Positions 1,587 through 28,434 of a stretch of DNA of 35,997 bases are shown one piece after another. Below the pieces are notes generated by a model that saw only the letters and a program-made list of their open reading frames with translations, ran no database searches and had not been told where the DNA came from. The DNA is from Acidimicrobiia bacterium. GTDB taxonomy: Bacteria > Actinomycetota > Acidimicrobiia > UBA2766. A program made the translations under genes and the position numbers. Within the stretch, counting starts at the first letter, position 1, and the number at the start of each line of letters is the position of its first letter. The stretch is from assembly GCA_019695375.1 (NCBI GenBank), contig JAIBAC010000012.1, positions 1 to 35,997 on the forward strand, written 5' to 3'.

Positions 1587-3008
1587 TTGGCACGAGTGGT
1601 TGTCATCGGCGGTGGTGTCGCCGGACTCGGTTGCGCACTCTGGCTCGCCCGCGCGGGCGTAGAGGTGACCGTCGTCGAGCGCGACCCGCTTCCGGACCAT
1701 CCCGACGTCGAGGCTGCCTTCGCCTCGCCCCGCCGCGGGGTCGCGCAGCTGCGTCACTCCCACGCGTTCCTCGCGCGGCTCCGCAACCTGCTCCGCGATC
1801 GTGCTCCAGACGTCCTCGCCGGCCTGCTGGCAGCCGGTGCCACCGAGCTGCGCTTCACGGAGAACATGCCGCCCGGCATCGAGGACCGCGCCGCCCGCGC
1901 CGGCGACACGGATCTCGTGGCACTCGCCTGCCGCCGTGCCACCTTCGACTGGGTGCTGCTGCGCGCGGCACGCGCGTCCGGAGCCGACATCCGCGACGCC
2001 ACCGCGGCCACCGGGCTCGTGCTCGAACACCTTCCCACCGGGCCGCCGCGAGTCCGAGGGGTCCACGTCTCGGGACCCGGCGGCGACGCGACGCTGCGCG
2101 CCGGCATCGTCGTCGACGCCGCCGGGAACCGGTCGGCGGTGTCGCGCTGGCTCGTCGACGCCGGCGCCGCCGAGCCGCCGGCGCGGTCCGAGGACTGCGG
2201 CATCGTCTACCTCTCGCGGTTCTGGCGGCTCTACGACGGCGGCACCCCCCGGATCGACGGCCCGATCGGGGGCGACCTCGGCTACCTGAAGTACGGCGTC
2301 TTCGTCGCGGACAACGCGACGTTCTCTGTCACGCTCGCCGTCCCCACCGAGGATGCCGAACTGCGCGGCCTGCTCCGCAGCAGCCGCGGCTTCGACGCCG
2401 CCGCCACTGCACTTCGGCACACGGCGCCGTGGATGGTCCCCGGCCGCGCAGCCCCACTGACGGACGTCGCGGTCATGGCCGGCCTCCGCAGCGTCCACCG
2501 CCACCTCGTGCGCGACGGCGCGCCGCTCGCACTCGGGCTCTGCTCGATCGGCGACAGCGCCGTGCGCACGAACCCGCTCTACGGTCGTGGCTGCTCGCTC
2601 GCGCTGGTCCAGGCCGCCGCGGTGGCCGACATCGTGGCGGCGGGAACGCCCGTCGAGGCCCTCACCGGGGCGGTCGAGGACGTCACCGACGCCGAGGTCG
2701 CCCCCTGGTTCGAGGCGTCCGTCGAGCAGGACCGCATGTCGCGGGCTGCACGCGAGGGCGAGCAGGCCGCCACGGTGTACGAGTCGATCCTCACCGACGG
2801 CTTGCTCCCGGCCGTCCGCAGCGACGCCACCGTGTTCAGGGCGTTCCTGCGCGGCTTCAACCTGCTCGACCCGCCCAGCACCCTCCTCGCGGACCCCGAT
2901 CTCATGGCCCGGGTCACCGCCACATGGAACGCCCGCGGCGAACGGCCACCCGAGCCGCCGCTGGGGCCACCACGCGACGAGCTCCTCGGCATGGTCCGAT
3001 CGGCCTAG
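1587..3008 (+). CDS. FAD-dependent oxidoreductase (monooxygenase/geranylgeranyl reductase-like)
   Basis: This 473-residue flavoprotein opens with the dinucleotide-binding motif VVVIGGGVAGLGCALWLARA followed by VEVTVVERD, whose terminal acidic residue should bind the FAD ribose. A second FAD motif, GLCSIGDSAVRTNP (G322-D323), is near residue 320, and the segment LYGRGCSLALVQA follows it. This layout is that of the para-hydroxybenzoate hydroxylase/geranylgeranyl reductase superfamily, including FAD halogenase-like members. No tryptophan halogenase WxWxIP motif was seen. The start is TTG at 1587, supported by CGAGGAG 5 bases upstream. It probably shares a transcript with the desaturase. Substrate unknown. 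Confidence 0.85.
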   Translation: MARVVVIGGGVAGLGCALWLARAGVEVTVVERDPLPDHPDVEAAFASPRRGVAQLRHSHAFLARLRNLLRDRAPDVLAGLLAAGATELRFTENMPPGIEDRAARAGDTDLVALACRRATFDWVLLRAARASGADIRDATAATGLVLEHLPTGPPRVRGVHVSGPGGDATLRAGIVVDAAGNRSAVSRWLVDAGAAEPPARSEDCGIVYLSRFWRLYDGGTPRIDGPIGGDLGYLKYGVFVADNATFSVTLAVPTEDAELRGLLRSSRGFDAAATALRHTAPWMVPGRAAPLTDVAVMAGLRSVHRHLVRDGAPLALGLCSIGDSAVRTNPLYGRGCSLALVQAAAVADIVAAGTPVEALTGAVEDVTDAEVAPWFEASVEQDRMSRAAREGEQAATVYESILTDGLLPAVRSDATVFRAFLRGFNLLDPPSTLLADPDLMARVTATWNARGERPPEPPLGPPRDELLGMVRSA

Positions 3009-3070
3009 GCCGATCGACGTAATCTTGCGCGATCTCGGCGTTTTCGGCCCCACGGCCGCCGCCGTCGTGA

Positions 3071-3146
3071 TATCTTCGACAAGTACCCCGAACGGGCAAG
3101 AAGCGGAGACCGGCAACGGGAGCCGCCGACGGTCAGTTCGGGGTAC
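3071..3146 (+). ncRNA. Candidate small structured RNA with its own -10 element
   Basis: A perfect 11-bp inverted repeat, GTACCCCGAAC (3083-3093) and GTTCGGGGTAC (3136-3146), closes a 64-base element. TATCTT at 3071-3076 fits a -10 box and would put the transcription start at 3083, the first base of the 5' arm. Inside, GACCG (3108-3112) can pair with CGGTC (3130-3134), leaving a purine-rich asymmetric bulge at 3094-3107. Two more hairpins follow (3168-3185 and 3231-3260), so a longer RNA is possible. It matches no riboswitch or housekeeping RNA consensus that I recognise. No clear -35 or U-tract terminator is visible. The RNA call is inference from geometry. Confidence 0.4.
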
Positions 3147-3167
3147 GACGCGTCTCGGGCCAAATGT

Positions 3168-3260
3168 GCAGGTCAGGCAACCTGCGCCTCCTCCCCGGCC
3201 CCCATCGTCGGCTGCCGTCGCTGCGCCTCGCGTCTTGTGCACGCCACCGCAGACAAGACG
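3168..3260. repeat. Two further hairpin-forming inverted repeats in the same gap
   Basis: GCAGGT (3168-3173) pairs with ACCTGC (3180-3185) across a 6-base loop. CGTCTTGT (3231-3238) pairs perfectly with ACAAGACG (3253-3260) across 14 bases. They lie between the end of the FAD oxidoreductase gene (+) and the end of the DUF2752 gene (-). They may be terminators for either gene or 3' domains of the candidate RNA. No T-tract is present. Together with 3083-3146 they account for most of the structure in the 291-base gene-free stretch 3009-3299; no convincing ORF was seen there. Confidence 0.4.
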
Positions 3261-3299
3261 GCGCGGCGACACCCCCGGCGACGACGACGGATCCGTCGA

Positions 3300-3734
3300 T
3301 CAGAGGAAGCCGAAGCGCACGAGCTGATAAGTCCACGACGCAGCGACCACGACGGCGAGCGCCGCGTAGGCCACCACCGCCGCACCGCCACGCGGACGCA
3401 GACCCGAGAGGCGGCGCCCGCTCACCAGCAGCGCCACGAGCACGATCACCGCGACCACGCAGCCGGCGAAGAGCACCGGCCCCGCAGGTGATGCAGAGGC
3501 TGCCGCACCGAGATGGCCGCCCGCGAGCTCGGTGAAGCTCGTGGTCAGCCCGCAGGCAGGACACGGAACACCGGTGAGAATGCGCAGCGGACACAGCACC
3601 GGGCCGTCGACGGCGTGGCCGCCACCGAGGCCGGCGAGCACGAACGCGGCGCTGACGCTGCCGCCGCAGAGGGCGAGGATCGCCTTCTGGGACCGCCGGT
3701 CGGTGCCAGATGCCGCCACGAGCGAAGGGACCAC
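3300..3734 (-). CDS. DUF2752 family membrane protein
   Basis: This 144-residue protein has the DUF2752 signature CPLRILTGVPCPACGLTTSF (C48, C58, C61) between hydrophobic segments. Predicted membrane helices lie at about 17-36, 82-103 and 117-138. Function is unknown for the family; the paired cysteines suggest metal binding or redox activity. The GTG at 3734 is preceded on the - strand by TAGGGT at a 6-base gap, again suggesting a leaderless start. It is divergent from the DUF2203 gene. Confidence 0.82.
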   Translation of the reverse strand: MVPSLVAASGTDRRSQKAILALCGGSVSAAFVLAGLGGGHAVDGPVLCPLRILTGVPCPACGLTTSFTELAGGHLGAAASASPAGPVLFAGCVVAVIVLVALLVSGRRLSGLRPRGGAAVVAYAALAVVVAASWTYQLVRFGFL

Positions 3735-16023: not shown

Positions 16024-16953
16024 GTGATCGCCTTCGTCTTCCCGGGGCAGGGGAGCCAGAACCCGGGAATGGGTGCGCCGTGGGTGGAGGCGTGGCCCGA
16101 TCTGTTCGACGCGGCATCCGAGGCAGCCGGCTCCGATGTCGTGCGCCTGACCTGTTCGGCCGACGAGACCGAGCTGCGCCGCACCGACAACGCCCAGATC
16201 GCGACGGCGGTCTGCTCCCTCGCGGCGCTCGCCAGCCTGCGCGCCGCAGGTGTCACACCCGCGGTCACGGCCGGCCATTCCCTCGGTGAGTATCCGGCGC
16301 TCGTTGCTGCCGGTTCGCTCGACGACGCCGCCGCGATCTCGCTCGTCGCAACGCGCGGCTCCGCGATGGCGACGGCCGCCGCACGATTCCCGGGCACGAT
16401 GGCGGCGCTCCTCGGTGCCGACGAGCACATCGCCCAGGCCGCCTGCGACAAGGCAGCCGCGGGCGGCGACCCGATGGTGTGCGTCGCCAACCACAACGCA
16501 GCCGATCAGGTGGTGATCTCGGGGACCGAGGCCGGCGTCGACGCCGCCGCCGCGGCCGCCAAGGAGCTCGGAGCGAAGAAGGCGCTGCCGTTGCGGGTCG
16601 GCGGTGCGTTCCACTCGCCGCTGATGGCACCGGCGCTCGTGCCGCTCGCCGTCAAGGTCGCGGCGACGCCGTTCGCCGATGCCACCGTACCGATCGTCGC
16701 CAACCTCGACGCGACGGCACACACCGACGCCGCCGAGATCGCGCCGCTCCTGCTCGGGGGCCTGTGCGCACCTGTCCGCTGGCACGAGACCATGCAGCTC
16801 CTCGACCGCCTCGGAGTCGACGCGGTCGTCGAGGTCGGCCAGGGGGGAGTGCTACACAAGCTCGCCAAGCGCGCGCTGCCGGGCAGAGTCGTCGCCCGCG
16901 TCGCCGAGCCCGCCGACGCCGCCACCGTCGCCGATGAGCTCGGAGGCATCTGA
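16024..16953 (+). CDS. fabD: Malonyl-CoA:ACP transacylase
   Basis: This 309-residue cytosolic enzyme transfers malonyl from CoA to acyl carrier protein to feed type II fatty acid synthesis. The oxyanion motif FPGQGSQNPGMG is at the N-terminus. The nucleophile is S86 in GHSLGEYPAL. ALPLRVGGAFHSPLMAPA carries the catalytic-dyad histidine, and VEVGQGG is near the end. The GTG at 16024 follows GAGAAGGGG. The gene leads a five-gene operon; its stop overlaps the next start in TGATG. Confidence 0.96.
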   Translation: MIAFVFPGQGSQNPGMGAPWVEAWPDLFDAASEAAGSDVVRLTCSADETELRRTDNAQIATAVCSLAALASLRAAGVTPAVTAGHSLGEYPALVAAGSLDDAAAISLVATRGSAMATAAARFPGTMAALLGADEHIAQAACDKAAAGGDPMVCVANHNAADQVVISGTEAGVDAAAAAAKELGAKKALPLRVGGAFHSPLMAPALVPLAVKVAATPFADATVPIVANLDATAHTDAAEIAPLLLGGLCAPVRWHETMQLLDRLGVDAVVEVGQGGVLHKLAKRALPGRVVARVAEPADAATVADELGGI

Positions 16954-17930
16954 TGGGTCTGCGCTTCCGTGGACTCGGGCACGCGACAGGGTCACGTGTG
17001 CTCACGAACGCCGATCTCGAATCGATGATGGAGACCACCGCGGCCTGGATCGAGGAGCGCACCGGGATCACCGAGCGCCATGTGTGCGCGGATGGCGAGA
17101 CGTGCTCGACCCTCGCTGCGGACTCCGGGCGTGAGGCGCTCGCGAGCGCCGGTGTCAGCGACGTGGACCTCTCGATCGTCGCGACCTGCACGCCCGACCA
17201 CCTCCTCCCGGCCACCGCCGCGTATGCCCAGCGCGAGCTCGGGCTCACGGGCGCAGCCATGGACCTCAACGTCGCGTGCTCGGGCTTCGTCTACGGTCTT
17301 GCGGTCGCCGACGGGCTCTTGAGCACAGGCGCCATGTCGACGATCCTGCTCATGGGTGCCGAGGCGTTCTCGCCGTTCATCGACTGGACCGACCGCGGCA
17401 CGGCGATCCTCTTCGCAGACGGTGCGGGGGCGGTCGTGCTCGAAGCCGTCGAGGGCCGCGGCGATCTGATCGCGACCGACTTCGGCAACGACGCCGCTCT
17501 CGCCGAGCTCATCCAGATCCGGGTCGGGAGCCGTACGCCGCCGGCTCAGGACACGCTCGAGAAGGGGACCCACTTCCTCCGCATGAGCGGACGCGAGGTC
17601 TTCCGTGCGGCCGTACGCGTCATCGCCGACTCGTCGCGGCGCTGCCTCGAGAGGGCAGGTATCGGGCCTGCGGACGTGGATCTCTTCGTGCCGCACCAGG
17701 CGAACGAGAGGATCATCACCGTCGCGGCCGAACGGCTCGGGGTGGCGCCGGAGCGCACGTTCGTCAACGTCGGCCGCCACGGCAACACCTCGGCCGCCAC
17801 GATCCCGCTCGCTCTGTACGAGGCGCAGGCCGCCGGGCGTCTGCACCGCGGCGACCGCGTGCTGCTCTGCGGGTTCGGTGCCGGGATGAGCTGGGGTTCC
17901 GCCGTCGTCGAGTGGAGCCTCGGGACATGA
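16953..17930 (+). CDS. fabH: Beta-ketoacyl-ACP synthase III
   Basis: This 325-residue initiating condensing enzyme joins an acyl-CoA primer to malonyl-ACP. The catalytic triad is visible: C109 in DLNVACSGFVYGL, His in VPHQANERII and Asn in GRHGNTSAATIPLALYEA. The N-terminal half has the family text ATGSRVLTNADLESM and WIEERTGITERHV. The start overlaps the fabD stop by one base and the stop overlaps fabG in ATGA, indicating tight coupling. Confidence 0.96.
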   Translation: MGLRFRGLGHATGSRVLTNADLESMMETTAAWIEERTGITERHVCADGETCSTLAADSGREALASAGVSDVDLSIVATCTPDHLLPATAAYAQRELGLTGAAMDLNVACSGFVYGLAVADGLLSTGAMSTILLMGAEAFSPFIDWTDRGTAILFADGAGAVVLEAVEGRGDLIATDFGNDAALAELIQIRVGSRTPPAQDTLEKGTHFLRMSGREVFRAAVRVIADSSRRCLERAGIGPADVDLFVPHQANERIITVAAERLGVAPERTFVNVGRHGNTSAATIPLALYEAQAAGRLHRGDRVLLCGFGAGMSWGSAVVEWSLGT

Positions 17931-18667
17931 CGGCGACGCAGACCGGAGACGGGCGGGTTGCACTCGTGACCGGCGCATCACGTGGCATCGGCGCCGCGAT
18001 CGCACGCCGCCTCGCTGCAGGCGGGCACAGGGTCGCGTGCAACTCGCGCAGCGGCTGCGCCGAGCTCGCGTCCGAGATCGGCGGAGTGGACGCCCCCGGC
18101 GACGTCGCGACCGCCGACGGGGTGGAAGCCGCCTTCGCCGCGGCGGAGTCGGGGTTCGCGGCCAAGGTCGAGATCCTCGTGAACAACGCCGGGATCACAC
18201 GTGACGGGCTCCTGTTGCGCATGAGCGATGAGGACTGGGACGCGGTCGTGAGCACGAACCTGACCGCAGCGATGCTCACGACGCGGCGGGCGCTGCGCAC
18301 GATGATCCGCGGCCGCCACGGCAGGATCGTCAACGTCGCGTCGGTGACCGGCCTGATCGGCAACCTCGGTCAGGCCAACTACGCCGCGGCCAAGGCAGGC
18401 CTCGTCGGTCTCACTAAGTCGGTCGCCGCTGAGGTAGCGTCTCGCAACGTCACGGCCAACGTCGTCGCCCCCGGCTTCGTCACGACCGACATGACCGCGG
18501 CCCTGGCCGAGTCGGTTCAGGAGCACTACGTGGGAAAGATCCCGATGGGGCGCATGGGGACGGCGGACGAGGTCGCGGAGTGCGTCGCGTTCCTGGCGTC
18601 GGACGCGGCGTCGTACGTGACCGGGGCCGTGCTCACCGTCGACGGCGGGCTCTGCCTCGGGCACTGA
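17927..18667 (+). CDS. fabG: 3-oxoacyl-ACP reductase
   Basis: This 246-residue NADPH-dependent SDR reduces beta-ketoacyl-ACP. It contains VALVTGASRGIGAAIARRL, VNNAGITRDGLLLRM, S in NVASVTGLIGNLGQ, Y152 and K156 in NYAAAKAGL, and the ending SYVTGAVLTVDGGLCLGH. The ITRDxLLxRM text is characteristic of FabG rather than of generic SDRs. ATG at 17927 overlaps the fabH stop. The same frame is open far upstream inside fabH, but that is not coding. Confidence 0.95.
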   Translation: MTATQTGDGRVALVTGASRGIGAAIARRLAAGGHRVACNSRSGCAELASEIGGVDAPGDVATADGVEAAFAAAESGFAAKVEILVNNAGITRDGLLLRMSDEDWDAVVSTNLTAAMLTTRRALRTMIRGRHGRIVNVASVTGLIGNLGQANYAAAKAGLVGLTKSVAAEVASRNVTANVVAPGFVTTDMTAALAESVQEHYVGKIPMGRMGTADEVAECVAFLASDAASYVTGAVLTVDGGLCLGH

Positions 18668-18695
18668 CCCGCTCGCAGCGTCCACTGGGTCGAGA

Positions 18696-18742
18696 GACCT
18701 GAAGCAGGAAGACCTGAAGTAGGAAGACAGGAAGGCAGGAAG
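18696..18742 (+). repeat. Purine-rich direct repeats with four AGGAAG motifs before acpP
   Basis: GACCTGAAGCAGGAA (18696-18710) is followed by GACCTGAAGTAGGAA (18711-18725) and a degenerate third part. AGGAAG occurs at 18706, 18721, 18729 and 18737. The copy at 18729-18734 has normal Shine-Dalgarno spacing to the ATG at 18743. The last copy touches the ATG. The others could be standby ribosome sites for a highly expressed gene. Confidence 0.6.
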
Positions 18743-18988
18743 ATGGATCGTGCACAGCTGCTCGAGGAGATCAAGGGCCTCGCGGCGGAGACGCTCGAGG
18801 TCGACACCGACGACGTCACCGAGGCGTCGCGCTTCTCCGACGACCTCGAAGCCGACAGCCTCGACCTCGTCGAGCTCGTGATGGCGATGGAGGAGAAGTT
18901 CGACATCAAGATCGACGAGAGCGAGCTCGAGGACATCGAGACGGTGGGTCAGGTGATCGACATCGTCGAGGTCAAGATCAAATCGTGA
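18743..18988 (+). CDS. acpP: Acyl carrier protein
   Basis: This small acidic carrier (81 residues) holds growing acyl chains on a phosphopantetheine arm. The attachment serine is S39 in DLEADSLDLVELVMAMEEKF, and the helix II/III text KIDESELEDIETVGQVIDIV is typical. Length matches the family. It lies 75 bases after fabG behind a repeated AGGAAG ladder, and its stop overlaps the fabF start in GTGA. Octanoyl-ACP from it is the expected donor for the LipB domain encoded at 25667. Confidence 0.97.
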   Translation: MDRAQLLEEIKGLAAETLEVDTDDVTEASRFSDDLEADSLDLVELVMAMEEKFDIKIDESELEDIETVGQVIDIVEVKIKS

Positions 18989-20190
18989 CAGCGGCGGTCG
19001 TCACCGGGGTCGGCTTCGCATGCCCCTTGGGCGTGGGCGCCGACGAGGTGTTCGACCGCTTCGTCGCGGGCGCGGACGGCTTCCGCGGCGACCACGTCGG
19101 CGAGCACCCCGTCGCGCGGGCGGACATCGGCGACCCCGCCGCCGTCATGGGGTCCAAGCGCGATGCGCGGCGCTCCGACAGGATGACCCACCTCGCGGTG
19201 GCGGCGGGGGACGCGGCCGCGGCACACGCAGGCATCGACTGGGAACAGCTCGATCGCGACCGTGCCGGCGTGATCATGGGCACCGCGTGTGGGGGGGTCG
19301 CATCCCTCACGCCTGCGGTGCGGGATTTCGACGCCAAGGGCGCCGATCGCGTGTCGCCGTTCCTGGTGCCGATGTTCATGGCCAACGCCCTGAGCGGCAC
19401 GCTCGCGATGCGCTATGGCATCGGCGGCCCCAACTTCACGGTCGTCACCGCATGCGCGTCCGGTGCCAACGCTGTGGGTGAGGCGTTGCAGGAGATCCGC
19501 GGCGGCAGATGCGACGTGATGCTCGCCGGCGGATCCGAAGCCGCGATCGAACCCGTGGTGGTGTCGAGCTTCGCCAACCTGGGCACGCTCACCCGCACCG
19601 GCATGCGACCGTTCGACCGCGACCGTGACGGGTTCGCGATGGGCGAGGGCGCCGCCGTGATCGTGATCGAGTCCGACGAGCACGCACGCCGACGCGGAGC
19701 ACGGGTGCTGTGCGAGGTCGCCGGGTACGGGTGCACAGCGGACGCATATCACATAACCGCACCGCACCCCGAGGGCGCCGGTGCCGTGCGCGCGATCCGC
19801 ATGGCGCTCGCCGACGCCGGGCTCACGCCCGCCGACGTCGGCTACGTCAACGCCCACGGCACGTCGACGCCCCTCAACGACGCGGCCGAGGCAGCCGCGC
19901 TGACCAGTGTCTTCGGCGGCGCGGTGCCACCGGTGTCGTCGTCGAAGTCGATGGTCGGCCACCTGATCGGCGCAGCAGGAGCCGTCGAGGCAGCAGTGAC
20001 AGCGATGGCGCTCTCACGTGAGGTGCTGCCGCCCACGATCCACTTCGACACCCCCGACCCCGACATCGACCTCGACGTGATCCCGGGCGAGGCACGTGAT
20101 GCGAAGGGCGTCGACGCGGCGCTGAGCAACAGCTTCGGCTTCGGCGGCCACAACACCGTGCTGGCGATGCGCCGTGGGAGGGCCGGCTGA
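18985..20190 (+). CDS. fabF: Beta-ketoacyl-ACP synthase II
   Basis: This 401-residue elongating condensing enzyme has C157 in VVTACASGANAVGEAL, H291 in VNAHGTSTPLNDAAE, H326 in KSMVGHLIGAAGAVEAAV and the ending NSFGFGGHNTVL. This C-H-H triad marks FabF/FabB rather than FabH. GTG at 18985 overlaps the acpP stop, so translation of the two is coupled. It is the last forward gene of the operon; a hairpin at 20199-20222 follows. Confidence 0.96.
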   Translation: MTAAVVTGVGFACPLGVGADEVFDRFVAGADGFRGDHVGEHPVARADIGDPAAVMGSKRDARRSDRMTHLAVAAGDAAAAHAGIDWEQLDRDRAGVIMGTACGGVASLTPAVRDFDAKGADRVSPFLVPMFMANALSGTLAMRYGIGGPNFTVVTACASGANAVGEALQEIRGGRCDVMLAGGSEAAIEPVVVSSFANLGTLTRTGMRPFDRDRDGFAMGEGAAVIVIESDEHARRRGARVLCEVAGYGCTADAYHITAPHPEGAGAVRAIRMALADAGLTPADVGYVNAHGTSTPLNDAAEAAALTSVFGGAVPPVSSSKSMVGHLIGAAGAVEAAVTAMALSREVLPPTIHFDTPDPDIDLDVIPGEARDAKGVDAALSNSFGFGGHNTVLAMRRGRAG

Positions 20191-20198
20191 TGATGTGG

Positions 20199-20222
20199 CG
20201 GCCGGATCGTGCCGATCGGCCG
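20199..20222. terminator. Hairpin between convergent fabF and fabZ
   Basis: The left arm CGGCCGGATCG (20199-20209) pairs with CGATCGGCCG (20213-20222) with one bulged G and a 3-base loop. It sits in the 40-base gap between two converging stops, so it may serve as a terminator in both directions. There is no T-tract, as is common in high-GC actinobacteria. Confidence 0.5.
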
Positions 20223-20230
20223 TCACGCCG

Positions 20231-20638
20231 CTACTCGACGTCGAGGACCGCGAAGCGCAGCGTCGCCGAGCACGCCACGTCGCCGCCGACCGTGGCAACC
20301 CCGCTGCCCTTGCCGATGCGGTGTCGCAGCTCCTCGAGGGTCACCTCGATCTCGAGCGTGTCACCGGGCAGGACCTGGCGCTTCCACCGCACCTTGTCGA
20401 GGCCGGCGAAGACGGGCAGGCCTTCGACCCCCGACGCCAGCAGCGCGCAGGCGCCGACCTGAGCGATCGACTCGACCTGCAGGACGCCGGGCAGCATCGG
20501 CCTCCCCGGGAAGTGGCCCTCGAACCGCTCCGGTCCCGGCGCCCACACCCCGCGGGCACTGCTCCCGTCAGCGTCGACCTCGACGTCGTCGACGAGCAGG
20601 AACGGCGGGCGATGCGGCAGCCACGCGGTGGGATCCAT
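20231..20638 (-). CDS. fabZ: 3-hydroxyacyl-ACP dehydratase, FabZ type
   Basis: This 135-residue single hotdog-fold enzyme removes water from 3-hydroxyacyl-ACP. It has LPHRPPFLLVDDVEVD, the active-site segment GHFPGRPMLPGVLQVESIAQ (H42 and E56) and CSATLRFAVLDVE at the end. Size and motifs fit FabZ, not the two-subunit HadAB/HadBC dehydratases of mycobacteria. It is transcribed against the fab operon. The ATG at 20638 has TAGTTT 8 bases upstream and no Shine-Dalgarno, so it is probably a separate leaderless gene. Confidence 0.93.
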   Translation of the reverse strand: MDPTAWLPHRPPFLLVDDVEVDADGSSARGVWAPGPERFEGHFPGRPMLPGVLQVESIAQVGACALLASGVEGLPVFAGLDKVRWKRQVLPGDTLEIEVTLEELRHRIGKGSGVATVGGDVACSATLRFAVLDVE

Positions 20639-20646
20639 GGGGCCCG

Positions 20647-20652
20647 AAACTA
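20647..20652 (-). promoter_or_regulatory. -10 element TAGTTT for fabZ (leaderless)
   Basis: TAGTTT on the - strand lies 8 bases before the fabZ ATG at 20638. No Shine-Dalgarno is seen. Confidence 0.45.
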
Positions 20653-20690
20653 GGCGGGGCGGCCACGTCCGGGGTCGCCGGTGGTGCGGC

Positions 20691-21068
20691 TCAGGCGTCG
20701 ACGGGGATCGTCCGGAACACGTCGAGCATCGCGTCGAGCAGGTCGCGGTTGGTGATCACGCGGGCGATCCCGCGTCCGCGCAGGCGCCCCGTGGCGACAG
20801 CGACGCTCGGGTGCATCTCGTGGCGCAGCATCGCCAGCCACGTCGAATAGCTGGCGCGCCCGACGGCGTGCGGGCGCCCATGGCGGCCGGTACGCAACGA
20901 CACCTCGCCGTGATCGACCTCGAGGGTGCCGTCGAGCGCCCAGTCCGGCGCGCGCACGACACAGACCCACATGCGCAGCCGCGAGCGCTCCGCCACCGAC
21001 GCGAAGCCCGGATCCGCCTGCAGGGCGGCTTCGGCGGCCTCGGCCCATTGCTCCGACAGGAACAGCAC
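20691..21068 (-). CDS. Small SCP2 sterol-binding-like protein
   Basis: This 125-residue soluble protein has the pattern of stand-alone SCP2 domains: FLSEQWAEAAEAALQADPGF, a central strand-rich part, YSTWLAMLRHEMHPSVAVA, then TGRLRGRGIARVITNRDLL and a helical end. SCP2 proteins bind lipids or acyl-CoA in a hydrophobic cavity, which suits the fatty acid context, but no ligand can be named. The start is uncertain: GTG 21068 gives the best family-like N-terminus; an in-frame ATG at 21143 would add 25 residues. It lies between fabZ (same strand) and fabI (divergent). Confidence 0.6.
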   Translation of the reverse strand: MLFLSEQWAEAAEAALQADPGFASVAERSRLRMWVCVVRAPDWALDGTLEVDHGEVSLRTGRHGRPHAVGRASYSTWLAMLRHEMHPSVAVATGRLRGRGIARVITNRDLLDAMLDVFRTIPVDA

Positions 21069-21166
21069 CCGCCAATCATGACGCGCGGCGCCTGCGCTCG
21101 CATCGTCGAGCTGTGTCAGACTTGCGGCGCCGACTGACGGCAACCCGATCCAGCCGAAGGGACCAC

Positions 21167-21931
21167 ATGCTGCTCGAAGGCAAACGCCTCCTCGTCACAG
21201 GCGTGCTCACCGACGCATCGATCGCCTACTCGATCGCCGAGCGGGCCCAGGAGCAGGGTGCCGAGATCGTGCTCACAGGTGTCGGCCGGGCGTTGCGGCT
21301 CACCGAGCGGATGGCGCGGCGCCTCCCGGGTGAGCCGCCTGTGCTCGAGATGGACGTCAACGACGCGGCCCACATCGAGGCCGTGCGTGACGACCTGCAG
21401 CAGCGCTGGGGCGGCGTCGACGGGGTCCTGCATGCGATCGGCTTCGCGCCGGCCGACTGCCTCGGCGGCGACTTCCTCGCGGCGCCGTGGGAGTCGGTGT
21501 CGGTGGCGGTGCAGACGAGCGCGTACTCCCTCGCCGCGCTCGCACGCGGGATGGAGCCGGTCCTGACCGATGGAGCGTCCATCCTCGCTCTCGACTTCGA
21601 TGCGACCGTCGCGTGGCCGGCGTACGACTGGATGGGCGTGGCCAAGGCCGCGCTCGAGTCGGTCATGCGCTACACGGCGCGCGAGCTGGGGCCGCGCGGG
21701 ATCAGGGTCAACTGCCTGTGTGCGGGTCCGATCCGGACGATGGCGGCCAAGAACATCCCCGGTTTCGAGCTCTTCGAAGGCGTGTGGGACGCGCGGTCGC
21801 CCCTCGGCTGGGATGTCCACGACCCCGAACCGGTCGCGAAGGCCGCCGTGGCGCTCCTCAGCGACTGGACGGCGGGGATCACCGCCGAGATGGTCCACGT
21901 CGACGGCGGCTACCACGCGATGGGCGCGTGA
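21167..21931 (+). CDS. fabI: Enoyl-ACP reductase, InhA-like
   Basis: This 254-residue NADH-dependent enzyme performs the final reduction of each elongation cycle. It reads MLLEGKRLLVTGVLTDASIA at the start (the FabI-type GxxxxxSIA nucleotide motif), then VLHAIGFAP, LDFDATVAWPAYDWM with Y153, K160 in VAKAALESV, AGPIRTMAAK, LLSDWTAG and VDGGYHAMGA. The text follows mycobacterial InhA closely, including Y-x6-K and the GW after the substrate loop. The ATG at 21167 has GAAGGGA upstream; a longer in-frame start at 21113 is not supported. Its stop overlaps the next start in GTGA. The family is the target of isoniazid and triclosan. Confidence 0.94.
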   Translation: MLLEGKRLLVTGVLTDASIAYSIAERAQEQGAEIVLTGVGRALRLTERMARRLPGEPPVLEMDVNDAAHIEAVRDDLQQRWGGVDGVLHAIGFAPADCLGGDFLAAPWESVSVAVQTSAYSLAALARGMEPVLTDGASILALDFDATVAWPAYDWMGVAKAALESVMRYTARELGPRGIRVNCLCAGPIRTMAAKNIPGFELFEGVWDARSPLGWDVHDPEPVAKAAVALLSDWTAGITAEMVHVDGGYHAMGA

Positions 21932-22496: not shown

Positions 22497-23801
22497 TCAG
22501 GCGTCGACGAGGCGGTCGTGGAGGTAGTCGTCGTACGCCGCGAGGTCGAGGAGGCCGTGGCCGGAGTAGTTGAACAGGATCACCTTCTCCTCGCCTGACT
22601 CCTTGGCGGCGAGCGCCTCGTCGATCGCGGCGCGCACGGCGTGGCTCGTCTCCGGTGCCGGGATCGTGCCCTGGGTGCGGGCGAACTGCACCGCCGCCTC
22701 GAACACCTTGCCCTGGGGGTAGGCGGCCGCCTCCATCAGGCCCGAGTGGACCAGCGAGCAGATGATCGGGGCGTCACCGTGGTAGCGGAGGCCGCCGGCG
22801 TGGATCGCCGGGGGCACGAAGTCGTGGCCGAGGGTGAACATCTCGAGGCGTGGCGTCATCCCCGCGACGTCGCCGAAGTCGTACTCGAACTTGCCTTCGG
22901 TCAGGGTCGGGCACGACGTCGGCTCGACCGCGACCAGCCGGATCGGGGCGCCGTCGATCTTGTCCTTGGCGAAGGGCAGCGCGATGCCGGCGAGGTTGGA
23001 GCCGCCCCCGCAGGAGCCGATCACGACGTCGGGGCCGTCCTCACCGGCGACGCGGAGCTGGTCGCGGGCCTCGAGGCCGATCACGCTCTGGTGCAGGAGC
23101 ACGTGGTTGAGGACCGAGCCGAGGCAGTAGTGGGTGTCGTCGCGTCCGACGGCGTCCTCGATCGCCTCGCTGATCGCGAGGCCGAGCGAGCCCGGGTGGT
23201 CGCGGTCCTGGGCGAGGAAGCCGCGTCCGGTCTCGGTCAGCTCCGACGGCGACGGCACGACGGCGCCGCCCCACGTCTCCATCATCACGCGCCGGTACGG
23301 CTTCTGCCGGTACGAGGCGGCGACCATGTACACCTGGCACTCGAGGCCGAAGAGCTGGCACGCGAGCGCCATCGACGATCCCCACTGGCCGGCACCGGTC
23401 TCGGTCGAGATGCGCGTGATGCCCTCCACCTTGTTGTAGAAGGCCTGGGGCACCGCCGTGTTGGGCTTGTGCGACCCCGCCGGCGACACCGACTCGTCCT
23501 TGTAGTAGATGCGCGCCGGCGTACCGAGGGCCTCTTCCAGACGGCGGGCGCGCACGAGCGGTGTCGGCCTCCACAGGCGCAGGACGTCGAGTACCTCGCC
23601 GGGGATGTCGACCCACTCGTCGGTGGACACCTCCTGGCCGATGAGCGCCATCGGGAACAGCGGCGCGAGGTCGTCGGGGCCGACGGGCTCGCCGGTGCCC
23701 GGGTGCAGCGGCGGCCCCGGCGGCTGCGGCAGCGACGGCACGATGTTGAACCATGCCGTCGGGAGCTGCGACTCGGCGAGGTTGATGCGGTTCTCTGCCA
23801 T
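22497..23801 (-). CDS. trpB2: Tryptophan synthase beta chain-like protein (TrpB2)
   Basis: This 434-residue PLP enzyme makes tryptophan from indole and serine in the family. The PLP lysine is K112 in [12 protein letters not shown], the phosphate-binding loop is [14 protein letters not shown], and [20 protein letters not shown] is the TrpB-type active-site segment. The extended N-terminus ([15 protein letters not shown]) and the [13 protein letters not shown] insertion separate TrpB2 from TrpB1. No trpA or other trp gene is nearby, consistent with TrpB2 genes that act in indole salvage or alone. AAGGGG precedes the ATG at 23801. Downstream of it lies hairpin block A. Confidence 0.92.
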
Positions 23802-24111: not shown

Positions 24112-25512
24112 GTGGCGCGATTCGACGTAGTGGTCATCGGTGGCGGTCCCGGGGGTTACGGCGCCGCTCTGTACGGGGCCTCCGCCGGGCTCAACGTCGC
24201 GCTCGTCGAGGCCCGCGACATCGGCGGCACGTGCCTGAACCGGGGCTGCATCCCCGCGAAGGAGCTGCTGCAGACCGCCGAGGTGTTCCGCACCGTGGCG
24301 GGGGCGGGAGAGTTCGGTGTCCAGGTGGGGGCGCCGTCGATCGACTGGACGCAGGCGGTCAAACGCCAGGGGCAGGTGGTCTCGCGCCTCGTCAAGGGCA
24401 CCACGGGCCTGCTCGGGCGCCGCGAGGTCGCGATGTATGCGGGATTCGGCCGGCTCGCCGGTGCGGGCGTCGTCGACGTCATGGGCTCCGACGGCGCCGG
24501 CGAGCGGATCGAGGCCGACGCCGTGATCCTGGCGACGGGCTCGGCACCTGCCACGATCCCCGGCTTCGACATCGACGGTGACCGGATCTGCACAAGCGAC
24601 CAGGCTCTCTTCTGGGATCCGTTGCCGCGCAGCGTCGCGATCGTCGGCGCCGGTGTCATCGGTGCCGAGTTCGCGTCCGCGCTCACCGACGTCGGCGTGC
24701 AGGTGCTGCTGCTCGAAGCGCTCCCGAAGATGCTCGGTTCGAGCGATCCCGAGCTGTCGGAGCACCTGCGCAAGGAGCTCGTCAAGCGCCGTGTCGACGT
24801 GCGCCTCGGCGCTTCGGTCACCGGTCACCGCCCCGCCGAGACCCCGGGCATGGAGACGATCGCGTTCACGCACTCGGGTGAGGACCTCGAGGCCGACGTC
24901 GAGAAGGTCCTCGTCGCTGTCGGGAGGCGTCCGTACACGGGCGGGATGGGGTTCGCCGAAGCCGGTGTCGCCGTCGACGCACGCGGCTTCATAGAGGTCG
25001 ATCCGGAGACGCTGCGCACGAGCGTCGACGGCGTGTGGGCGCTGGGGGACTGCATTGCGACGCCGGCCCTCGCGCACGTCGCCTACGCCGAGGCGATGGT
25101 CGCGATCCGGGCGATCCTCGGCGAGGCCCCCGCGCCCGTGAACTACGACGGTGTGCCGTGGTGCGTCTACACCCACCCCGAGGTCGCGTGGGCCGGCCTC
25201 GACGAGGACGAGGCCCGCGCCCGCGGGTACGAGGTCGAGGTCGTCAAGACCAACTACGCGGCGATCGGGCGGGCGATGATCCTGGGCGAGACCAAGGGCT
25301 TCGTGAAGATCGTCGCCGACGCCAAGACCGGGCGCATGCTCGGAGTGCACATCGTCGGGCCGTGGGCCACGGAGCAGCTCACGGAGGGCTACCTCTCGGT
25401 GAACTGGGAGGCGACAGCCGCTGAGCTCGGTCATCTGGTGCACGCGCACCCGACACTGTCCGAGGCGATGGGCGAGTCGGCCCTCCGCCTCACCGGCCGG
25501 TCCATCCACTGA
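24112..25512 (+). CDS. lpdA: Dihydrolipoyl dehydrogenase (E3)
   Basis: This 466-residue flavoprotein reoxidises lipoyl groups of 2-oxoacid dehydrogenase or glycine cleavage complexes with NAD+. It has the FAD motif VVVIGGGPGGYGAALYGASA, the redox disulfide C41/C46 in GGTCLNRGCIPAKELLQ, the NAD motif VAIVGAGVIGAEFASAL, the second FAD motif GVWALGDC and the catalytic dyad H446/E451 in VHAHPTLSEAMGES. Start is GTG 24112; GGAG lies about 10 bases upstream. The lipoate synthesis gene follows 154 bases downstream on the same strand, which supports a lipoate-linked role over a mercuric or other disulfide reductase. Confidence 0.94.
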   Translation: MARFDVVVIGGGPGGYGAALYGASAGLNVALVEARDIGGTCLNRGCIPAKELLQTAEVFRTVAGAGEFGVQVGAPSIDWTQAVKRQGQVVSRLVKGTTGLLGRREVAMYAGFGRLAGAGVVDVMGSDGAGERIEADAVILATGSAPATIPGFDIDGDRICTSDQALFWDPLPRSVAIVGAGVIGAEFASALTDVGVQVLLLEALPKMLGSSDPELSEHLRKELVKRRVDVRLGASVTGHRPAETPGMETIAFTHSGEDLEADVEKVLVAVGRRPYTGGMGFAEAGVAVDARGFIEVDPETLRTSVDGVWALGDCIATPALAHVAYAEAMVAIRAILGEAPAPVNYDGVPWCVYTHPEVAWAGLDEDEARARGYEVEVVKTNYAAIGRAMILGETKGFVKIVADAKTGRMLGVHIVGPWATEQLTEGYLSVNWEATAAELGHLVHAHPTLSEAMGESALRLTGRSIH

Positions 25513-25666: not shown

Positions 25667-27310
25667 ATGACAGCCGCCGTCCGCTCCCCATCGCCTGGCC
25701 TGCCCAAGCTGCGGGCACGCTGGCTCGGCCGCGTCGGCTACCGCGAGGCGTGGGACCTCCAGCGTGCGCTGTTCGACGCCCGTGTGCGTGACGAAGGCGA
25801 GGACTACATGCTCCTCGTGGAGCACCCCCACACGTACACGTGCGGGCGGCGCACGGACCCGGCCCACCTGCTGCGCACGCCCGAGGAGTACGCGGCGCTC
25901 GGTGCGGAGGTCGTCGACGTCGACCGCGGCGGTGACGTCACCTACCACGGACCCGGCCAGCTCGTCGTGTACCCGATAATGCGCCTCGGCCGTCCCGACG
26001 TCGTCGCCCACGTCCGCAGGCTCGAGGAGCTCGTGATCGCGACCCTCGCCGGATTCGGGATAGTGGGCGAACGTGTCGACGGCTTCACCGGCGTCTGGGC
26101 CGGCGGCGCCAAGGTGTGCCAGATCGGCTGCCGCGTCACACGTGGTGTGACCATGCACGGCCTCGCCCTGAACGTGGCACCCGACCCCGAGTACTGGCGC
26201 CACATCGTGCCGTGCGGCATCGAGGACTGCTCCGTCACGTCGATCGCGGAGCTCACGCACGAGCGCATCGACGTCGCCACGGTCGCCCGTGCCCTGCTCG
26301 AGCAGGCTCGGGCCACGTTCGGGCGCGACGTCGACTTCTGCGGTGAGGCGTGGCCGCGCTCGCGCCCGCGCCGTGGTGCGTCGATCCCGGTCGCGGGCGT
26401 GCGCAGCCTGCGGGCTGCGGCCGTCGAGGCAGGCCCCGACGTCAGGGCGCAGGCACGCGGACGTCCCTCGTGGCTGAAGCGACGCGCGCGTCTCGCCGAC
26501 GCCGGGTTCGTCGAGCTCAAGGCCCTCATGCGCGGGCTCGACCTGCACACGGTGTGCGAGGAGGCGGGCTGCCCGAACATCTACGAGTGCTGGAGCGAGC
26601 GCACGGCCACGTTCATGATCCTGGGCAAGGACTGCACCCGATCGTGCGGCTTCTGCGAGGTCGACACCGCGAAGCCGCTCCCCGTCGATCCCGCCGAACC
26701 CGAGCGGGTCGCGGATGCCGTGGATGCCATGGACCTCGAGTACGCGGTGCTGACCAGCGTCGCACGCGACGACCTCGACGATGGCGGGGCGGCGGCCTTC
26801 GCCGCCTGCATCGACGCGATCCGGCGACGCCGGCCTGGCTGCGAGATCGAGGTGCTCGTACCCGACTTCAAGGGTGACCACGCTGCCGCCACCGTGGTCT
26901 TCGACGCACGGCCCGACATCTTCAACCACAACCTCGAGTCGGTTGCCCGCCTCCAGCGCCTCGTCCGGCCTCAAGCCGGCTACGCCCGCAGCCTCACCCT
27001 GCTCGCACGTGCCAAGCGCGCGGGGCTCGTCACCAAGTCCGGGATCATCTGCGGGATGGGTGAGACGGAGTCCGAGGTCGTCGAGGCGATGGCCGACCTG
27101 CGCGCCGTCGGCTGTGACATCCTCACCATCGGCCAGTACCTGCGACCTTCCGCCAGGCACCTCCCGGTGCATCGCTGGGTGGAGCCGGCGGAGTTCGACC
27201 GCCTCGCCGCCACCGGCCGTGATCTCGGATTCGCGCATGTCGAGTCCGGTCCGCTCGTGCGATCGAGCTACCACGCCCGCAGCGCGGCAGCATCGGGGCG
27301 CCGGCTTTGA
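25667..27310 (+). CDS. lipB-lipA: Fused octanoyltransferase-lipoyl synthase (LipB-LipA)
   Basis: One uninterrupted 547-codon frame encodes both steps of de novo lipoate assembly. Residues 1 to about 228 are LipB, which moves octanoyl from ACP to a lipoyl domain: RGGDVTYHGPGQLVVYPI, K149 in GGAKVCQIG and the thioester cysteine C183 in IVPCGIEDCSVTS. Residues about 229-264 form a basic, alanine-rich linker. Residues about 265-547 are LipA, a radical SAM sulfur-insertion enzyme: C297, C302 and C308 (auxiliary cluster, CEEAGCPNIYEC), C323, C327 and C330 (CTRSCGFC), and R532-S-S-Y535 near the end. All catalytic residues of both parts are present, so a bifunctional enzyme is expected. LipB and LipA are normally separate neighbouring genes. 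The M24 gene overlaps the stop in TTGA. A sequencing error joining two genes is unlikely because linker and frame are smooth. Confidence 0.93.
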   Translation: MTAAVRSPSPGLPKLRARWLGRVGYREAWDLQRALFDARVRDEGEDYMLLVEHPHTYTCGRRTDPAHLLRTPEEYAALGAEVVDVDRGGDVTYHGPGQLVVYPIMRLGRPDVVAHVRRLEELVIATLAGFGIVGERVDGFTGVWAGGAKVCQIGCRVTRGVTMHGLALNVAPDPEYWRHIVPCGIEDCSVTSIAELTHERIDVATVARALLEQARATFGRDVDFCGEAWPRSRPRRGASIPVAGVRSLRAAAVEAGPDVRAQARGRPSWLKRRARLADAGFVELKALMRGLDLHTVCEEAGCPNIYECWSERTATFMILGKDCTRSCGFCEVDTAKPLPVDPAEPERVADAVDAMDLEYAVLTSVARDDLDDGGAAAFAACIDAIRRRRPGCEIEVLVPDFKGDHAAATVVFDARPDIFNHNLESVARLQRLVRPQAGYARSLTLLARAKRAGLVTKSGIICGMGETESEVVEAMADLRAVGCDILTIGQYLRPSARHLPVHRWVEPAEFDRLAATGRDLGFAHVESGPLVRSSYHARSAAASGRRL

Positions 27311-28434
27311 CCGCCGCCGCCGGGGTAACGCCGGTGCCCGACTGGGGCGCGCGCATCGACGCCGCCCGCGCGGCCATGTCCGATCTCGGCATCGAGTCCC
27401 TCGGCGTCACGGCGGGCAGCGACCTCACGTACCTGTGCGGCTACGAGGCGATGCCGCTGGAGCGGATCACGATGTTCGTCGTCGGTCTCTGGGGTGAGCC
27501 CGTGCTCGTCGTGCCCGAGCTCGAGGCGCCCCGCGTCGACGACCGCGATGGCCTCTTCGAGGTCGTCACATGGGCCGACGGCGAGGATTCCCTCGACATC
27601 TGCGCGCGGATGCTGCGCCGCGCAGGCCACCCCGGTGGTCCGGTCGCGATCGGTGACCGCGCGTGGGCCGAGCACCTGCTCGGCCTGCAGCGACGCCTGT
27701 ACCACGCGACGTGGGTGCCGGCATCGGACGTGCTGCGAGGCCTGCGGTCCGTGAAGTCGGCGGCTGAGATAGCGCTGCTACGAGAGGCCGGCGCCGCCAT
27801 CGACGCGGTCGTCGAGACGCTCCCGTCTCTTGAATGGGCCGGACGCACCGAGGCGGAGGTCGCAGCGGCCATCGGGGACGAGATCGTCGCGGCCGGACAC
27901 GAGCTCGTCAACTTCGTGATCGTCGCCGCGGGCGCCAACGCGGCTTCGCCTCACCACGAGCCCGGCGACAAGGTGATCAACGCCGGCGAGTGCGTGCTCG
28001 TCGACATCGGCGGCACGCGCAAGGGCTACTGCTCCGACACGACCCGCGTCGTCAGCATCGGCGCACCCGCCGCCGAGGTAGAGGCAGCATGGGATGCGCT
28101 GCGCGCGGCCCAAGAACGTGCGACCGCGACGGTCGCGCCCGGGATCGCTGCCGGCGCGGTCGACGCCGCCGCACGCGGCGTCATCACCGAAGCCGGGTAC
28201 GGGGACGCGTTCATCCACCGCACCGGCCACGGAATCGGCCTCGACGCGCACGAGGACCCCTACATCGTCGCGGGCAACGACGAGGAGCTGCAGCCGGGCA
28301 TGTGCTTCTCGATCGAGCCCGGCATCTACTTGAGCGGCAGGTTCGGCCTGCGCCTCGAGGACATCGTCGCCGTGACCGACGACGGCGTCGAGGTCCTGAA
28401 CCGCACCGCTCACGAACTCATCGTCGTCGGGTGA
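27307..28434 (+). CDS. M24 family metallopeptidase, Xaa-Pro aminopeptidase-like
   Basis: This 375-residue protein has an N-terminal creatinase-like domain (about 1-150) and a pita-bread catalytic domain. All five metal ligands are present: D233 and D244 in LVDIGGTRKGYCSDTTR, H308 in HRTGHGIGLDAHE, E337 in SIEPGIYL and E351 in RLEDIV. It should remove N-terminal residues before proline, using two Mn or Co ions. The start is TTG 27307, overlapping the upstream stop by 4 bases, so it is coupled to lipB-lipA. In many actinobacteria an M24 gene has other neighbours, so the pairing is probably not functional. Confidence 0.9.
   Translation: MTAAAGVTPVPDWGARIDAARAAMSDLGIESLGVTAGSDLTYLCGYEAMPLERITMFVVGLWGEPVLVVPELEAPRVDDRDGLFEVVTWADGEDSLDICARMLRRAGHPGGPVAIGDRAWAEHLLGLQRRLYHATWVPASDVLRGLRSVKSAAEIALLREAGAAIDAVVETLPSLEWAGRTEAEVAAAIGDEIVAAGHELVNFVIVAAGANAASPHHEPGDKVINAGECVLVDIGGTRKGYCSDTTRVVSIGAPAAEVEAAWDALRAAQERATATVAPGIAAGAVDAAARGVITEAGYGDAFIHRTGHGIGLDAHEDPYIVAGNDEELQPGMCFSIEPGIYLSGRFGLRLEDIVAVTDDGVEVLNRTAHELIVVG

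Follow-up and report, generated by a model that had tools for sequence, protein, structure and literature searches.

The window analysed here, a 35,997-nucleotide stretch of an Acidimicrobiia genome (GCA_019695375.1), was found to carry a gene, lipBA, in which a LipB octanoyltransferase and a LipA lipoyl synthase are encoded within a single open reading frame of 547 amino acids. This agreed with the initial annotation, which had placed LipB and LipA in one frame. The features of the locus were as follows.

16953-21931: fab cluster (fabH, ACP, fabF, FabA-like dehydratase and enoyl reductase-like SDR)
22497-23801, minus strand: TrpB-like pyridoxal-phosphate enzyme (PRK12391, 705 bits), oriented away from lpd
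24112..25512, plus strand: lpd, dihydrolipoyl dehydrogenase (TIGR01350, 477.7 bits), directly upstream of lipBA
25667..27310, plus strand: lipBA, LipB-LipA fusion, a single ATG-to-stop frame of 547 aa with class-wide conservation
25700..26344, plus strand: LipB octanoyltransferase half, residues ≈12-226 (PF21948, TIGR00214, NF010925, 2qhs)
26111-26113 and 26213-26215, plus strand: codons of K149 and C183, respectively, in the LipB half
26345..26452, plus strand: linker, residues ≈227-262, of low predicted confidence and of variable length and sequence across the class
26453..27307, plus strand: LipA lipoyl synthase half, residues ≈263-547 (PF16881, PF04055, TIGR00510, 5exk)
27307..28434, plus strand: M24-family peptidase, overlapping the lipBA stop by 4 bases

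Domains and catalytic residues of the lipBA product

Pfam resolved the protein into LplA-B_cat (PF21948, residues 25-213), LIAS_N (PF16881, residues 266-302) and Radical_SAM (PF04055, residues 318-477) domains. The cut-offs of the NCBIfam equivalogs for both enzymes were exceeded, with 155.9 bits vs 83.55 for lipB (TIGR00214) and 363.7 bits vs 310.25 for lipA (TIGR00510), as was the curated cut-off of a further lipB family (NF010925, 218.1 bits vs 155). The fusion was present in one copy in its own genome, where it constituted the sole LipB and the sole LipA. That genome also encodes a second, divergent LplA/LipB-type protein of 393 amino acids (L126:1015-2196, minus strand, contig 164 of G000), which matched PF21948 at 41-43 bits, gave no NCBIfam match at 1e-20, and may be a lipoate ligase or some other protein with this fold.

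M. tuberculosis LipB is characterized by an RGG loop, a Cys/Lys dyad and a thioester intermediate, with the dyad and loop serving to define a LipB (PMC9307952). Both of these were found in the window protein, as K149 with C183 and as R87-G88-G89, which we take as the counterpart of the M. tuberculosis loop. The LipA half likewise contained the CX4CX5C auxiliary cluster motif (C297/C302/C308), the CX3CX2C radical SAM motif (C323/C327/C330) and the RSSY motif (532-535) that define a lipoyl synthase. The catalytic residues named in the initial annotation were thereby confirmed to be present, and those checked were invariant in 80 relatives with the exception of the tyrosine of RSSY. Specifically, K149, C183 and all six cysteines were identical in 80/80 aligned fused proteins, as were S533 and S534, with position 535 being Y in 67, H in 9 and F in 4 of them; R87-G88-G89 was invariant in a 38-row alignment. 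Because the catalytic residues are conserved, both halves look active, i.e. catalytically competent as judged by sequence.

Distribution and origin of the fused frame

A match was found in 59 of 60 close genomes of the class Acidimicrobiia and in 375 of 394 genomes of the class, with 19 lacking a match, and among the best matches listed for the 394 class genomes both domains were covered by one open frame. The fused loci, ranging from 33% to 77% GC, included records named Acidimicrobiia, Acidimicrobiales, Candidatus Microthrix and Candidatus Actinomarina as well as single-contig genomes (e.g. G005, G015, G021 and G026), and the loci L049, L053 and L058 were also fused. Thirty genomes, mostly ones with a match split into two or three pieces, were re-examined; nearly all of them had the LipB and LipA parts in one open frame, the exceptions (G503, G560, G579 and G643) having pieces at contig ends or a gene that was internally broken. 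Two separate genes at this position in close relatives, which according to the initial annotation would speak against a fusion, were not found among the approximately 400 class genomes searched. Within six low-GC genomes of the Actinomarina type (33-36% GC), frame 0 was without a stop over 542-548 codons and frames 1 and 2 held 41-84 stops each; the chance of 63 stop-free linker codons was about 1% per such genome, the six not being six independent tests because they are related.

An assembly or sequencing error, or chance read-through of GC-rich DNA, could in principle have joined two ordinary adjacent genes, considering that the window has 71% GC, that it derives from a draft assembly of 332 contigs and that in many actinobacteria a single stop is all that separates lipB from lipA within one frame, but a sequencing accident was excluded because the same fusion recurs throughout the class, single-contig genomes included, and with independent assemblies sharing the same open frame, which stays open at 33-36% GC despite the many stops in the other frames, we rejected a frameshift or GC artefact as having next to no probability. 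The sequences strongly support a genuine single-chain fusion of LipB and LipA that retains both active sites, and this fusion characterizes the class Acidimicrobiia as a whole rather than being peculiar to this genome.

A record named Bifidobacterium breve (L037, CAMBEL010000003.1) carried the class-type fusion, grouped with the Acidimicrobiia rows and is probably a misnamed metagenome assembly. Separate E2, lipB and lipA genes were seen on contig 83 of G051 (L139, 5026 bases), a genome that has the fusion as well; since trees placed these genes with the proteobacterial outgroup, this is probably a contaminant or transferred piece.

The view that the two enzymes are normally separate held outside the class, with lipB and lipA usually being in separate frames in a sample of 396 genomes of the phylum (Actinomycetota), and with two genes in other actinobacterial classes bar one probably independent fusion. 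That fusion, in G410 of another class of the phylum (L127, frame 1599-3734), was the only one among 12 candidates with long LipA frames that were inspected outside the class, and in its congener G385 lipB and lipA were unfused and in different frames. G442, G480, G357 and G373, all from the class of G410, were rejected as fusions due to stops between the domains of apparently shared frames. In Rhodococcus, Dietzia, Streptomyces and others, lipB adjoined lipA, and frequently the two shared a frame interrupted by a single stop; these adjacent pairs were collected by requiring one tblastn match to cover the two genes, which favours same-frame pairs. Annotated matches covering both halves in a plasmid search were two separate genes.

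In the LipB tree, 44 class rows were set apart from all others by one branch (support 80), as were 33 class rows in a pruned LipA tree (support 85), whereas a larger LipA tree had Actinomycetes rows among the fused rows with weak support; the grouping of the class by the two trees is moderately supported. The G410 fusion lay elsewhere in the trees and probably arose independently of the class fusion; grouping it with the class was rejected by the AU test for LipA (p 7e-5), whereas for LipB it was not (p 0.18). One class-level fusion and at least one other is the simplest reading of these sequences. The class fusion probably arose once, before the class diversified, from an ancestral state of adjacent E2, lipB and lipA genes in which the stop between lipB and lipA was lost.

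Predicted structure, linker and gene neighbourhood

The AlphaFold model of the window protein had a pLDDT of 86.9 and a pTM of 0.89, and that of L067, which is 44% identical to it, a pLDDT of 87.2 and a pTM of 0.89. Among solved structures, the nearest were M. tuberculosis LipA (5exk) for residues 236-547 (Z 40.9, rmsd 2.1, 300 aligned, 50% identity) and, for residues 11-223, T. thermophilus LipB (2qhs; Z 32.6, rmsd 1.4, 209 aligned) and M. tuberculosis LipB (1w66; Z 30.8, rmsd 1.7, 203 aligned, 47% identity). A linker of about 35 residues had initially been placed at approximately 26350-26460, which agreed with a model confidence below 50 at residues 231-247 and 255-258; it is poorly conserved, with 36-82 residues between P0001 positions 210 and 266 across the class.

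The catalytic domain of LplA-type ligases resembles LipB. In both models, alignments to such ligases ended in a helix of the LipA half (≈439-451; most rows ≈445-451 and 448-453, respectively), and because they end there the helix is similarly placed relative to the LipB half in both, a placement read from first and last aligned residues only, in alignments of the two models that share sequences. As the pTM was 0.89 in the models of two homologues that are ≈44% identical, direct packing of the halves is suggested. The models thus hint at halves that are docked rather than freely tethered, and the freely tethered picture may be wrong.

The frame could be fused with LipA nevertheless being made also, or mainly, as a separate protein, either by initiation at a start codon inside the linker or through proteolysis. 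The linker is predicted to be disordered, an in-frame ATG was found in the scanned region of 59/85 fused loci, and an ATG or GTG with ≥5 matching Shine-Dalgarno bases in 22/85. However, the position of such internal start sites was not conserved across the fused loci, and the scanned region of the window held one in-frame GTG only, without a Shine-Dalgarno match; as a test against an internal start this is weak, in that true lipA starts of separate genes also rarely showed a match. We consider separate production of LipA to be improbable; a fixed 1:1 ratio of the two activities follows only if LipA is neither made separately nor cut loose.

Lipoamide dehydrogenase had been noted just upstream, and lpd was indeed found there, lying upstream on the same strand in 30/30 fused class loci that had 3.2 kb or more of sequence on that side; the fab operon, estimated to be 6 kb away, was located approximately 4-9 kb upstream of lipBA. 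An E2 gene was found within 300 bp directly upstream in 22/32 fused loci with at least 1.6 kb upstream, E2 sequence was upstream in 45/50 of those with shorter flanks, and the M24 peptidase was downstream in 41/78 fused loci with room for it. The E2 of L031, having lipoyl, E3-binding and catalytic domains, lies between lpd and the fusion, and in L048 and L140 the E2 overlaps the fusion by 4 bases. In the window and in G002, lpd directly precedes the fusion with E2 absent from that spot, and the E2 has therefore moved in the family of the window. The E2 genes of G001-G003 were on other contigs. The own genome of the window had an E2 catalytic domain at the end of a 7129-base contig, the lipoyl domain of which is cut off because of this position; it also had GcvH, and three PF00364 matches that were biotinyl (AMKM/SMKM). 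Loss of all lipoyl E2 from this genome, as raised by the biotinyl nature of these three matches, was rejected, considering the E2 catalytic domain at the contig end and the presence of GcvH. A homologue of the TrpB-like enzyme was also seen near the fusion in G002 (L142).

Proposed function and relation to known systems

Central metabolic enzymes depend on lipoylation, and work on LipB and LipA has treated them as separate enzymes. The gene described here very likely specifies a bifunctional protein that carries out both final steps of lipoate assembly; judging from its domains and residues, this one polypeptide probably attaches octanoyl to lipoyl domains before inserting sulfur. The lpd and E2 genes upstream in most class members, and the GcvH and E2 of the own genome, speak for this reading, whereas the moderate tree support with Actinomycetes rows among the fused ones in the larger LipA tree, the distance of E2 from the fusion in the window, the few class genomes with split, broken or absent matches and the separate pair in G051 speak against it. 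The LipB half would take octanoyl from octanoyl-ACP to form a thioester on C183, with K149 as partner, and would pass it from C183 to the acceptor lysine of an apo lipoyl domain in either a 2-oxoacid dehydrogenase E2 or GcvH. The LipA half would then cleave SAM twice and insert two sulfurs from its auxiliary 4Fe-4S cluster; LipA is known to perform this double sulfur insertion with degradation of its own auxiliary cluster (PMC12246082). The main effect of the fusion may be co-production of the two enzymes at 1:1 and their co-location, a suggestion weaker than that of the chemistry itself, and if LipB and LipA are docked, the octanoylated domain might be handed over more easily. The benefit proposed in the initial annotation, with the octanoylated lipoyl domain held between two active sites, is hypothetical.

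How much the fusion adds to catalysis can be read in different ways. Loss of the stop could have been neutrally fixed in the ancestor, without any channelling and with the halves remaining independent enzymes on a string, as would fit the widely varying length and sequence of the linker, the adjacent in-frame genes elsewhere that make a fusion event easy, and the second fusion that arose in G410. Persistence of the fusion in the class, where no clear reversion was seen, and the high pTM in two models speak against this but are still compatible with neutrality, to which we give a probability slightly short of even. The bifunctional protein might alternatively form a docked two-site lipoylation machine, with LipA packed onto LipB, with the LipA helix at ≈439-451 in the position of the end of the catalytic domain of LplA-type ligases in both models, and with the octanoylated domain being passed from site to site with little release, on an E2 that is often produced from the same operon; this elaboration, drawn from the models, we regard as tentative and rather unlikely.

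A LipB-LipA fusion was nowhere described in the openly licensed full-text literature that was searched, a body largely without subscription journals, and none was mentioned in the portion of a GTDB-wide survey of lipoate pathways that was covered (PMC10332631). The architecture may already be automatically listed in protein databases. As a natural and ancient fusion, it provides a single protein in which direct transfer of the octanoylated intermediate between sites can be examined, it offers fixed-ratio parts for lipoylation engineering, and it is a clean molecular marker of Acidimicrobiia, a class known mostly from uncultured members.

Compared to known systems, the N-terminal half has the same fold, Cys/Lys dyad and RGG loop as LipB octanoyltransferases (1w66, 2qhs) and passed the family cut-offs, the difference being that it here forms part of a longer chain. 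Similarly, the C-terminal half has the fold, both cysteine triads and the RSSY motif of LipA lipoyl synthases (5exk; human LIAS, 8v0j) and passed the cut-off, but it has no separate start codon accompanied by a recognisable Shine-Dalgarno sequence. A different fusion, LplA-LipA, already has an NCBIfam model (NF053790, bifunctional lipoate--protein ligase/lipoyl synthase) and also has an attachment enzyme N-terminal to lipoyl synthase; the N-terminal half of the window protein is, however, a LipB with a catalytic Cys and not an LplA ligase, and the protein failed the cut-off of that family (361 of 800 bits), matching profile positions 331-605 only, i.e. the LipA part. Actinomycetes such as Rhodococcus, Dietzia and Streptomyces share the gene order of lipB followed by lipA, often in frame, but make two proteins. 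The LipB-LipA fusion is real, class-wide, old and apparently undescribed, with ordinary chemistry in a new arrangement.
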